A program made the position numbers and the translations under genes. This document shows, in pieces, positions 5,667 to 25,873 of a stretch of DNA of 25,873 nucleotides (position 1 is the stretch's first letter; each line of letters starts with the position of its first letter). The stretch spans positions 1 to 25,873 of IMG/VR virus record IMGVR_UViG_3300007722_000098, one strand, 5' to 3'. Source of the DNA: a virus. The notes below the pieces were generated by a model. The model was given only the letters and a program-made list of their open reading frames with translations. It was not told the DNA's origin and did no database searches.

Positions 5667-6242
5667 TTAGTCGTCGCCGCCATCATCACCATCATCACCA
5701 TCATCACCATCATCACCACCATCATAGTCATCGACTGGTTCTGGTAGTTTTGGTGGATAGGCAAACGTATAATCCGAACGAACTGGTAATTCTGTAACGA
5801 GCGACGTTTTAAAGAATATCTTTTGTGTTCCATATGATGAAAAGACCCTCTCGTACAACTCTGGAAGATCGTTAACACCCGCAGCCGCATTAGCAACAAC
5901 AAGAGTCTTATCACCACCGATCCGTTGGGCCATTTCGTTGTATCGCTCTTCGGACGTTGCTGCGGCAATAGAAGACCTGTAATAGAACAGAAATTCTGCG
6001 CGCCCAGAATCATCGGTGATAATTGGACTTCCGATCGCACCGTTCAAAGGTTTAATATCTGCTGCCGCTACTTTCCTTCCCTCAAAGAACACAACATGCG
6101 TGGTCGAAGGCATCAAACCATTAACAACGATTGTGAACACTCCTTGCTTAGCAAGAAATATATAATTTAAATTTGTTGCTGTTTCGGAAGCGAGTGAATA
6201 TCCACCTGGGATTTCAGGACGCGGAGTTAAATTTACACCCAT
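5667..6242 (-). CDS. Virion-associated protein with Gly-Asp-Asp repeat tail, 191 aa
   Basis: I cannot assign a named family. Residues 1-170 look globular: MGVNLTPRPEIPGGYSLASE, a hydrophobic strand IFLAKQGVFTIVVNGLMPST, then THVVFFEGRKVAA, reminiscent of an Ig-like or beta-sandwich fold. The last 20 residues are almost only Gly and Asp (four GDD-type units then GGDD). Such acidic tails can bind calcium or remain disordered. The start overlaps the stop of the DUF4815-type gene (TAATG) with an AAGGA site upstream, so translation is probably coupled. It lies between two large structural genes, which suggests a virion component, but this is inference. Confidence 0.65.
   Translation of the reverse strand: MGVNLTPRPEIPGGYSLASETATNLNYIFLAKQGVFTIVVNGLMPSTTHVVFFEGRKVAAADIKPLNGAIGSPIITDDSGRAEFLFYYRSSIAAATSEERYNEMAQRIGGDKTLVVANAAAGVNDLPELYERVFSSYGTQKIFFKTSLVTELPVRSDYTFAYPPKLPEPVDDYDGGDDGDDGDDGDDGGDD
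5681..5725 (-). repeat. 9-bp tandem repeat encoding (GDD)n
   Basis: On the plus strand a CATCATCAC unit is repeated about four times, with a variant at the right end. Read on the minus strand it is GTGATGATG, encoding Gly-Asp-Asp. Units are nearly identical at the DNA level, so slipped-strand changes in copy number in steps of three residues are expected and would keep the frame. Confidence 0.85.
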
Positions 6243-21588: not shown

Positions 21589-21612
21589 CTCCTGATGTTT
21601 TATGTTATTAAC

Positions 21613-21620
21613 TATTTATA
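21613..21620 (-). promoter_or_regulatory. T4-type late promoter box, leftward
   Basis: The plus strand reads TATTTATA, that is TATAAATA on the minus strand, an exact match to the T4 late -10 element recognised by the gp55 sigma factor with gp33 and the gp45 clamp. The predicted RNA start is near 21607, giving a leader of about 28 nt with a CAGGAG ribosome site before the gp48-like ATG at 21579. It would drive the entire leftward baseplate operon. Confidence 0.8.
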
Positions 21621-21628
21621 GTCTTAAA

Positions 21629-22072
21629 ATGGCACACAAAGGTTTTTTTAACCCACGAAATCCGCAAAAATACAAAGGCGACCCCACAAAAATCGTGTAT
21701 CGATCGTCGTGGGAGTTCAAATTTATGATGCATATCGACCTCCACCCGAGCGTACTACAATGGTCCTCGGAAGAGTTTTCGATTCCTTACGTCTCGCCGA
21801 TTGATGGTAGGATCCACCGTTATTTCCCCGATTTCTGGGTCAAACAAAAGAATTCAAAAGGATTAGTTGAGGTGCTTGTTGTTGAAATCAAACCAAAGAA
21901 ACAAACAATTGCGCCAACACCATCTAAAAAGCGGACAAGAACCTATGTTAACGAGGTTAAAACGTGGGGTATAAACTCGGCGAAATGGACCCAAGCAAAG
22001 CAATTTTGTGAAGACCGCAAATGGCGGTTTGTAATTTTCAACGAGCACGATTTAGGTATTAAACCTAGGTGA
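21629..22072 (+). CDS. gp4: Head completion protein gp4
   Basis: The product, 147 aa from the ATG at 21629, follows T4 gp4 (150 aa) along its length: 'KGFFNPRNPQKYKGDPTKIV' (T4 KWVPKNISKYRGDPKKIT), 'YRSSWEFKFMMHIDLHPSVL', 'HRYFPDFWVK', 'VVEIKPKKQT' (T4 FIEIKPKKET), and 'YVNEVKTWGINSAKWTQAKQ'. The D...EIKPKK pattern is that of a PD-(D/E)XK nuclease fold. gp4 acts on filled heads before tail attachment. An in-frame ATG at 21602 would add nine residues (MLLTIYSLK). I prefer 21629 because the family starts with MA and because 21602 lies only about 8 nt from the predicted RNA start. Neither start has a clear Shine-Dalgarno site. Confidence 0.93.
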   Translation: MAHKGFFNPRNPQKYKGDPTKIVYRSSWEFKFMMHIDLHPSVLQWSSEEFSIPYVSPIDGRIHRYFPDFWVKQKNSKGLVEVLVVEIKPKKQTIAPTPSKKRTRTYVNEVKTWGINSAKWTQAKQFCEDRKWRFVIFNEHDLGIKPR

Positions 22073-22112: not shown

Positions 22113-22853
22113 ATGCCGAGAAAACTAACAACGTCAGAGTATATCGAAAAAGCTAAAAAAGCTCATGGGGACAAATATGACTACAGCAACGTTACTTATA
22201 TAAGCTCCCAAACAAAAATTGAAATTGTTTGTGCTGTTCATGGACCATTCTTTCAAACACCAAATAGCCACCTCACTGGTTGTGAATGCCCAATCTGTGG
22301 AGAGGAAAACGGGAGAAAAAGTAATCGCTTAACCACTGCCGACTTTATTGCACGGGCACGCAAAATACATTTTGACGCTTACGACTATTCTTTAGTAAAA
22401 TACACTGTTAACTCTGAGCCAGTAACTATAATATGTAAACTACACGGCAAATTTGAGCAAAACGCTTACGCACATATCCACCCATCAAAAATGAGTGGTT
22501 GCCCCGCTTGCTCGCGCAAAGGGTATTCGTCAAAAGCTCTTGTCTGGATTAAATCACAACCAAAAAGTCACCTGATTCAACACGCTTTAAACGGCGGCGA
22601 GTTTAAAATTCCTGGAACCAGATTTAAAGCTGATGGGTATTGTAAGCAAACAAACACCATATATGAGTTCTACGGTGATGTATTTCACGGCAACCCCAGA
22701 TTATTTAAACCCCACGATCTGTGTCACCCGTTTAATAAAACAACAGCTGCAGAACTTCTAGAGAGAACACAAAACAGGGAAGCAAAAATTAAAAAACTAG
22801 GTTACAATATCAAGGTAATGTGGGAAGATCAGTTTGATAAAGGACTGAGATAA
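22113..22853 (+). CDS. Putative homing-type endonuclease: two DUF723-like zinc repeats plus Vsr-like nuclease
   Basis: A 246-aa protein with two tandem repeats, residues about 5-66 and 73-134, each 'F/YI.(K/R)A(K/R)..H...YDYS.V.Y' followed by C-x2-H (C40/H43; C108/H111) and C-x2-C (C59/C62; C130/C133). These look like DUF723-type DNA-binding units with a zinc site each. Residues about 162-240 hold a nuclease-like domain: 'FKADGYC' (D174), 'TIYEFYGDVFHGNP' (E185, D189, H192, N194), then 'ERTQNREAKIKKLGYNIKVM' and WED, the pattern of Vsr-like/EDxHD endonucleases. Such genes occur as free-standing homing or intron endonucleases in phages. It is not a virion gene by sequence. It sits between gp4 and a tail gene with its own late promoter box, and its stop overlaps the next start (TAATG). 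No intron is visible around it. Confidence 0.8.
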   Translation: MPRKLTTSEYIEKAKKAHGDKYDYSNVTYISSQTKIEIVCAVHGPFFQTPNSHLTGCECPICGEENGRKSNRLTTADFIARARKIHFDAYDYSLVKYTVNSEPVTIICKLHGKFEQNAYAHIHPSKMSGCPACSRKGYSSKALVWIKSQPKSHLIQHALNGGEFKIPGTRFKADGYCKQTNTIYEFYGDVFHGNPRLFKPHDLCHPFNKTTAAELLERTQNREAKIKKLGYNIKVMWEDQFDKGLR

Positions 22854-24345: not shown

Positions 24346-25053
24346 ATGGCCTTACCTAAAATTCAGCACCCAATTTTTGATTTGAAGATTCCTTCACTAA
24401 ACAAAACAGTAAAGTTCCGCCCCTTTCTTGTCAAAGAAGAAAAGATTCTTCTTACGGCTCAGAGTGCCGGCGACAAAACAGATATTATAACATCGCTCGT
24501 GCAAATTATTAATAATTGTGCTTTAGAGGATATCAATGCCGAGAATCTCGCGACATTTGACCTTGAGTATTTGTTTATTAAGCTGCGCGCCCGATCTGTT
24601 AACAATATAATTGAGATCAAGTATAAGGATGCTGATGATCAAAAGGAATATCCACTCTCAATAGACCTCGATAAAATTGAGGTTAAGTTTAACAGCGAAA
24701 ATAATAACACTGTCAAAATTAGTGACAGCGTCTCACTAAAACTTGGGTTCCCAAAACCTGGGATGATCGACTCTCTGAAGCAAGCAGCAAATCCAACAGA
24801 AGTTTACTTTAAAATTCTCGCCCACACTCTCGAGTATGTTATTGATAATAACGTAACTACCGATGTTCGCGACGTTAAGTTTGAAGAGGTTGAAGAGTTT
24901 ATCGAAAATCTTAACATTGCGTCATACAAGGAAATCGAAAAGTTTGTTGAAACACTCCCTGTTGTTAGCCACGAAGCTTCGTACACAAACAGCAAAGGGG
25001 CATTAAAGGTTGTGAAGTTGGAAGGCCTAGAAGATTTTTTTACGCTGGGCTAG
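24346..25053 (+). CDS. gp26: gp26-family (T4_baseplate) tail/hub assembly protein, zero-frame product
   Basis: 235 aa. The start 'MALPKIQHPIFDLKIPSLNK' and 'TVKFRPFLVKEEKILLTAQS' is the hallmark of the T4_baseplate family (T4 gp26-type hub proteins). The remainder fits: 'FDLEYLFIKLRARSVNNIIE', 'LKLGFPKPGMID', 'VEEFIENLNIASYKEIEKFV' and 'LEGLEDFFTLG'. In position and architecture it equals the first product of a tail-assembly chaperone pair: a cytoplasmic factor that coats the tape measure during tube growth. It ends 10 nt after a TTTTTTT heptamer that allows a -1 shift (see the extended product). Ribosome site CGGAG. Gap of 13 nt from the gp54-like gene. Confidence 0.88.
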   Translation: MALPKIQHPIFDLKIPSLNKTVKFRPFLVKEEKILLTAQSAGDKTDIITSLVQIINNCALEDINAENLATFDLEYLFIKLRARSVNNIIEIKYKDADDQKEYPLSIDLDKIEVKFNSENNNTVKISDSVSLKLGFPKPGMIDSLKQAANPTEVYFKILAHTLEYVIDNNVTTDVRDVKFEEVEEFIENLNIASYKEIEKFVETLPVVSHEASYTNSKGALKVVKLEGLEDFFTLG

Positions 25054-25211
25054 CCTACAATAACTTAAATAATTATTATTCGGTCGTGTTTGCATTAGCC
25101 CACCACCACAAATGGAGTATAAGTGAAATTGAAGGGCTAATTCCCTATGAGAGGGACATATATGTTGAAATGTTAGATGCGCTTATAGAAAAGCAAAAAG
25201 GACAACAGTAA
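24346..25211 (+). CDS. Predicted -1 frameshift product of the gp26-family gene (288 aa)
   Basis: Inferred join of 24346-25041 and 25041-25211. The zero frame reads GAT TTT TTT ACG at 25033-25044, so 25035-25041 is a perfect T-TTT-TTT slippery heptamer. After a -1 slip, reading continues TAC GCT GGG CTA and so on without a stop for 56 codons, to TAA at 25209-25211. The added peptide (YAGLAYNNLNNYYSVVFALA, HHHKWSISEIEGLIPYERDI, YVEMLDALIEKQKGQQ) is protein-like, and 'W(S/T)..EIE.L.PYER..Y..(M/L)L' resembles extensions of other phage tail chaperones (gpG-T type; T4 gp51 may be the counterpart). The -1 stop overlaps the next ATG as TAATG, as elsewhere in this genome. The extension has no plausible start codon of its own upstream. 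The shift itself is not demonstrated. Confidence 0.8.
25035..25041 (+). promoter_or_regulatory. Slippery heptamer T TTT TTT for -1 frameshifting
   Basis: Seven T residues in exact register for tandem tRNA(Phe) slippage. Four nt downstream, TGGGCTA (25046-25052) is perfectly complementary to TAGCCCA (25096-25102), giving a possible 7-bp stem with a 43-nt loop that contains the zero-frame TAG. Such a stem could stimulate the shift; the loop is long, so the structure is less certain than the heptamer. Confidence 0.75.
25046..25102 (+). other. Possible frameshift-stimulating stem-loop
   Basis: Arms 25046-25052 and 25096-25102 pair perfectly (7 bp, four of them G-C), with one extra G-U possible inside. 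It starts 4 nt after the slippery heptamer. The AT-rich loop includes AATAATTATT. No energy calculation was possible. Confidence 0.45.
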
Positions 25212-25873
25212 TGGCAGATATCGTAACATCCGCAGTACGTGGAGCAGGAAAAACAGCAAAGGACGCGGCAAAAGGAGCTGTAGGTGTCCTCACGGCACCA
25301 GCAAAGGCAATGCTTAGCTTCTACAAACAGATTCCAATTCTCGGCAAGATGATGGATAACACCGTCAAGGAATACAAGAAGACGAATGATCGTTTGAATA
25401 AGACGGTTATGACAAACACAAAGTCTATTGATTCGTTGAGTAAAAACATTCACCGTCTAGGTGTCAACGCCGGCCAATCAGCCCACAAATCGCTCCACAA
25501 CGATCGTTTCGGGGATATGAAGAAGGTAGCTCTTGGCGGTGGTGTTACAGGGTTAGGTGGTGCAACTACTCCTGCAATCATGATCGGGCTCGTTGCTGCA
25601 GCAATGTCAAACAAAACTATTAGAGAGTCGGCGATCGGTGCTTTGGAAGGAACAACGCTTGGAGCTCTTCAGCTCGTTCTCGGTAAAAAGAAAGCAGAAG
25701 CGCTTCGTGGCCAAGTAGAAGATGTTGGTAGTGTTGTTGTGGAAAAGATCGCAAAGTTTGGTGATAACATGAATGATATTATCACTGTGCTTAAACCTCT
25801 TGGAACGATTTTCAAGGGGCTGAGTGATGTCTCGAAGTATCTGTGGGAGAAGCTGGGTGGCAAGGAGGATAAC
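25211..25873 (+). CDS. gp29: Tape measure protein, gp29-like (partial, C-terminus beyond window)
   Basis: Open from ATG at 25211 to the right edge, 221 codons without a stop. The N-terminus is Ala/Lys-rich and helical (AVRGAGKTAKDAAKGAVGVL), followed by a charged helix (NTVKEYKKTNDRLNKTVMTN, TKSIDSLSKNIHRL). A Gly/Ala-rich hydrophobic stretch at residues about 106-137 (KVALGGGVTGLGGATTPAIM, IGLVAAAMS) is the sort of membrane-active segment found in tape measure proteins. The start overlaps the stop of the frameshifted chaperone, and AAGGA precedes it. A chaperone frameshift pair directly before the longest tail gene is the standard arrangement, so the assignment rests on context plus composition. 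T4 gp29 is 590 aa, but the length here cannot be seen. Confidence 0.75.
   Translation, partial: MADIVTSAVRGAGKTAKDAAKGAVGVLTAPAKAMLSFYKQIPILGKMMDNTVKEYKKTNDRLNKTVMTNTKSIDSLSKNIHRLGVNAGQSAHKSLHNDRFGDMKKVALGGGVTGLGGATTPAIMIGLVAAAMSNKTIRESAIGALEGTTLGALQLVLGKKKAEALRGQVEDVGSVVVEKIAKFGDNMNDIITVLKPLGTIFKGLSDVSKYLWEKLGGKEDN

Follow-up and report, generated by a model that had tools for sequence, protein, structure and literature searches.

A gp26-family phage gene very probably encodes a gp51-type extension through -1 frameshifting on a conserved T-rich heptamer

What is encoded in the 157 nt that separate the zero-frame stop codon of a gp26-family gene from the next ATG (25211) is the question raised by the window analyzed here, a viral contig from IMG/VR (25,873 bases) that belongs to a marine T4-like phage. 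The gene itself (24346-25053, plus strand) specifies in its zero frame a protein of 235 aa, the putative short chaperone form, which matches PF12322 (T4_baseplate; E 5.7e-50, 170.5 bits versus a cut-off of 24.5) and phrog_150 (E 5.9e-57). Its 3' end reads GAT TTT TTT ACG CTG GGC TAG, with the TAG stop at 25051-25053 and, in phase and 5' of it, the candidate slippery heptamer T_TTT_TTT at 25035-25041 (plus strand). In the -1 frame the same strand reads FFYAGLAYNN...QKGQQ, with an extension of 56 aa after the two Phe residues (25041-25211, stop included) that ends at TAA (25209-25211); the final A of this stop is also the first base of the ATG that opens the following gene, in the sequence TAATG (25209-25213). 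The predicted fusion would comprise 288 aa and 32.9 kDa, in line with the roughly 33 kDa given in a preliminary description of this DNA, whose coordinates for the heptamer, stops, -1 frame, TAATG and downstream stem we re-derived and found correct throughout. From the comparisons set out below, we consider -1 frameshifting on T_TTT_TTT very probably the best explanation of this arrangement.

The preliminary description left conservation of the heptamer and of the -1 frame as a question, which comparison with relatives answers in the affirmative. A search with the family profile yielded 80 further IMG/VR loci, several phage records were added, and 89 non-identical loci were compared; the search pattern demanded a Phe-Phe pair and, by its description, no particular codons. 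The heptamer T_TTT_TT(C/T) was found in all 89 (T_TTT_TTC in 79, T_TTT_TTT in 10), as against T_TTT_TTY at 49 of 372 other Phe-Phe pairs from the same loci (13%), the loci being related and the counts therefore not independent. The first Phe codon is invariably TTT (74% gene-wide), and the Asp or Ser codon preceding the pair ends in T in every locus. The second Phe codon is TTC in 79 of the 89 versus 26% gene-wide, a bias that we do not put down to slipperiness alone because the last base also opens the next -1 codon (often Arg). Without exception the zero-frame stop lies 0-9 nt past the heptamer, and the -1 frame leads on into gp51 for whatever length of it the contig includes. Over 45 codons this frame is free of stops in 85 out of 85 loci, both other frames being closed in all of them, and substitutions at its three codon positions amount to 0.344, 0.215 and 0.543, the pattern to be expected if this frame is coding. 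The closest distinct relative, L003 (gp26 59% identical, extension 72% identical), has the site GAT TTT TTT ACC TTT CGC TGA.

Searched on its own, the extension hits phrog_634 (gp51, described as 'baseplate hub assembly catalyst') with an E-value of 5.4e-21. The T4 proteins gp26 (208 aa) and gp51 (249 aa) both belong to PF12322, and T4 gp51 carries the PF12322 domain and the extension in a single frame: approximately 48 residues lie past the PF12322 match, the C-terminal 100 residues match phrog_634, and the C-terminus matches a profile of 44 extensions, with no T4 sequence among them, at E 4.1e-7. The alignment to T4 gp51 proposed at the outset has thus shown the extension to be homologous to the C-terminal part of that protein. 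Because of these PF12322, phrog_634 and T4 gp51 profile matches, the unshifted product is assigned the architecture of gp26 and the predicted shifted product that of gp51. An AlphaFold model of gp26 (pLDDT 89) found nothing among solved structures in the PDB at E <= 0.001, and its matches in a viral structure library were mostly gp26-type baseplate proteins. The extension is modelled as three predicted helices (pLDDT 75), and its search against viral models also returned nothing at E <= 0.001. A fold match to solved chaperones is not required for membership, since such chaperones diverge widely.

The gene following the extension (25211-25873, plus strand) is cut by the window end, and its 221 residues present gave no significant tape-measure match. 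At the same place L003 encodes a 765-aa protein with a phage tail lysozyme domain, and Cr30 has a gene annotated as tape measure. The earlier naming of this gene as the tape measure therefore stands as regards its position and the long tail gene of relatives, but finds no significant family match in the truncated product; we call it, by position, the probable tape measure protein. A chaperone role for the gp26-gp51 products is suggested by their architecture, by the literature, and by their place ahead of a long gene whose counterpart in relatives is the tape measure. In the Konradin record both proteins already bear the label 'tape measure protein assembly chaperone'.

Several other genes of the window deserve mention. 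Between head-closure gp4 and a gp2-like DNA end protector lies a 246-aa homing-endonuclease-like protein (22113-22853, plus strand; phrog_681/559, DUF723). The gp4-like head closure protein (21602-22072, plus strand) has a second match, to PF08722, a TnsA-like endonuclease domain (E 2e-21), which is what a structural protein derived from an endonuclease would show. On the minus strand, a long tail protein of repeated motifs such as GANVNLTTTQIKVGNSTVN (3-2579) is open at the contig end, and a 191-aa protein (5667-6242) has an acidic tail with a DDGDDGDD repeat at its C-terminus.

Eight records lack an in-phase heptamer, namely those of T4, Konradin, Cdu_VP8, CfP1, KP15 and RB49 and the two T4-like IMG/VR genomes L094 and L097, the latter having G_TTT_TTT with the first T gone. 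All eight possess two PF12322 genes. A single PF12322 gene was found in 23 records with a slippery site, a copy number that is firm for the complete phage records only, since most IMG/VR contigs in this set are fragments. The sites in these 23 are T_TTT_TTY in 20, T_TTT_TTG in P10VF, and variants in two members of the Ackermannviridae, where A_ATT_TTC (Salmonella phage Vi01; L010 from 3290) and G_GTT_TTC (Serratia phage 2050H1; L106 from 3250) are each followed by an unannotated -1 gp51-like extension after gp26; that of 2050H1 matches the extension profile at E 9e-9. In the records compared, the heptamer and a second PF12322 gene are mutually exclusive, as expected if frameshifting and duplication are alternative routes to the same two proteins. 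The earlier suggestion that T4 gp26 and gp51 make up the chaperone pair is supported in that the extension is the gp51 part, but T4 itself, with two PF12322 genes and no heptamer, is free of the frameshift.

Two further elements flank the heptamer. Across 63 dereplicated loci, predicted pairing with the anti-Shine-Dalgarno sequence is strongest at Glu-Gly codons about 10 nt 5' of the heptamer, with a mean of -7.25 kcal/mol compared to -5.62 +/- 0.20 kcal/mol in a synonymous-codon null (codons redrawn by gene usage). Only this excess is counted, because the conserved Leu-Glu-Gly residues give part of the Shine-Dalgarno-like signal. The corresponding stretch of the window, TTGGAAGG (25018-25024, plus strand, Leu-Glu-Gly codons), pairs weakly at -5.5 kcal/mol. 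On the 3' side, sliding-window folding across loci produced a single clear dip, with a mean z of -1.63 in the 60 nt immediately downstream of the heptamer; the overlapping folding window that begins 20 nt earlier has a z of -1.39, and all remaining ones range from +0.5 to -0.9. In the window, folding predicts a stem-loop at 25042-25103 (plus strand), whose 7-bp arms at 25046-25052 (TGGGCTA) and 25096-25102 (TAGCCCA) are perfect complements and begin 4 nt 3' of the heptamer. The stem pointed out previously is real as a pairing, but compared with dinucleotide shuffles the fold has no exceptional stability (z -0.80), and the structure signal is clear across loci rather than in the window by itself. 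What is conserved is the position of the structure only: RNAalifold returned an empty consensus for the ungapped alignment, with no fold common to all loci. The stem of L003 has 9 bp; its 3' arm occupies the same codons as that of the window, and its 5' arm has slid by about 5 nt. Taken across the family, the Shine-Dalgarno-like element and the downstream RNA structure probably stimulate slippage.

The same extension might be read as a separate small gp51 gene in the -1 frame, with a start of its own and translated by termination-reinitiation at the gp26 stop. The records of P-SSM4, Cr30, Moby, P10VF and S-RIM2 do annotate gp51 as a separate gene, an in-frame ATG lies no more than nine codons from the site in 67 of the 89 loci, and TGATG junctions occur in Cr30 and Moby. 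Nonetheless, we judge this explanation very unlikely. No such ATG exists in 22 of the 89 loci, the window and L003 included; in the window no ATG stands ahead of the conserved core, the only candidate being a GTG at 25086, within the conserved region. Moreover, the ATGs found past the site are devoid of a Shine-Dalgarno sequence (mean -0.31 kcal/mol versus -4.13 kcal/mol at gp26 starts), and at the most frequent ATG position Met alternates with Leu. The loci without ATG, the Met/Leu alternation and the missing Shine-Dalgarno sequences together indicate that reinitiation is not the general mechanism, although some phages may gain additional product from it. A separate start also leaves unexplained the invariant heptamer, the spacing of the Shine-Dalgarno-like element, and the coincidence of heptamer loss with a full-length second gene. 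Transcriptional slippage, whereby RNA polymerase would slip on the T run and mixed mRNAs would supply the -1 frame, appears less probable again: the window does have a run of seven T's, but 79 of the 89 loci have no more than six T's before a C, which is short for polymerase slippage, the phase of the run relative to the codons is invariant, and both the Shine-Dalgarno-like element and the 3' structure would be irrelevant to such a process. Finally, homopolymer runs are error-prone, but a sequencing or assembly error is rejected by the identical frame relation in 89 of 89 loci, coming from many assemblies as well as isolated phage genomes.

Ribosomal -1 frameshifting, on the other hand, survives every comparative test that was run, and would allow one gene to supply two tail-assembly chaperones. 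Most ribosomes would end at 25051-25053 and release the 235-aa short form, while a minority would shift back by one base on T_TTT_TTT, with tRNA-Phe re-pairing in both sites, and translate on in the new frame as far as 25211. Their product would be a long form of 288 aa that includes the C-terminal domain of gp51. Within the family, slippage would be aided by the Shine-Dalgarno-like sequence about 10 nt 5', a dnaX-like spacing, and by the RNA structure just 3'. Lambda gpG/gpGT suggests how the work would be divided, with short forms as a coat on the tape measure protein and the few long forms as recruiters of tube or hub partners. T4 and its relatives would obtain both forms from the separate genes gp26 and gp51. 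A literature search turned up no experiments on this point in cyanophages. Whether the dnaX-like three-part signal (a GAGGG-like Shine-Dalgarno element, U_UUU_UUY and a 3' structure) is the ancestral route to gp51, replaced by duplication in the T4 relatives, is a proposition on which we are evenly divided, taken as a whole and including its extension over T4-like myoviruses and, with variant heptamers, the Ackermannviridae.

These findings amount to an annotation fix for a large phage group, in which gp51 is usually either overlooked or called as a small gene of its own from an arbitrarily chosen start, and should instead be annotated as the C-terminal portion of a gp26-gp51 protein made by frameshifting. 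In S-RIM2 (L006:3262-3399) and similar records, the annotated gp51 start is an internal ATG that drops the conserved first part of the extension; these annotated proteins are probably the C-terminus of frameshifted gp26. The locus further offers a clean evolutionary contrast between frameshifting and a duplicated gene for one protein pair, and the 'hub catalyst' function long ascribed to T4 gp51 becomes testable as that of a tail-assembly chaperone long form.

Among known systems, E. coli dnaX has a Shine-Dalgarno-like element about 10 nt upstream, a slippery heptamer and a downstream structure. This three-part layout is shared with the gp26 site, where only the conservation pattern suggests the stimulators; dnaX differs in slipping on A_AAA_AAG, whereas the site here is U-rich, and is an unrelated gene. 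The lambda heptamer is G_GGA_AAG, in place of T_TTT_TTY here. In lambda gpG/gpGT, and in the general frameshift of phage tail-assembly chaperones (Xu et al. 2004), a single gene just ahead of the tape measure gene yields short and long forms through -1 slippage, as predicted here; the protein families bear no detectable relation to the gp26/gp51 described here. In the Vandenendeviridae and Andersonviridae (PMC12846349), which are other phage families, the short-chaperone gene also carries a U-rich -1 site at its 3' end, and no stop interrupts the -1 frame until the tape measure gene (here, the probable tape measure gene) is reached; the site there is GTTTTT, a shorter T run. According to the Atkins review (PMC5009743), G/GT frameshifting is broadly conserved among long-tailed phages 'except T4'. 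Citing Vladimirov et al. 2022, PRFect (PMC10274946) states that some T4-like phages have a short and a long gene in place of the frameshift, and the Adele paper (PMC12846349) that polyT is a known -1 signal in T4-like TAC-N genes. Through these two papers, the T4-like gp26/gp51 chaperone idea is credited to Vladimirov, Gautam and Davidson (Virology 2022). As far as these citing accounts convey it, neither that idea nor polyT slippery sites are new, and the predicted frameshift of the window is a good though unexceptional case of a known phage strategy. The T4-like gp26/gp51 system, as credited to Vladimirov et al. 2022 in the same accounts, involves the same protein families in the same place and includes the polyT site; T4 employs two genes, whereas the phage of the window has one gene and a predicted frameshift.
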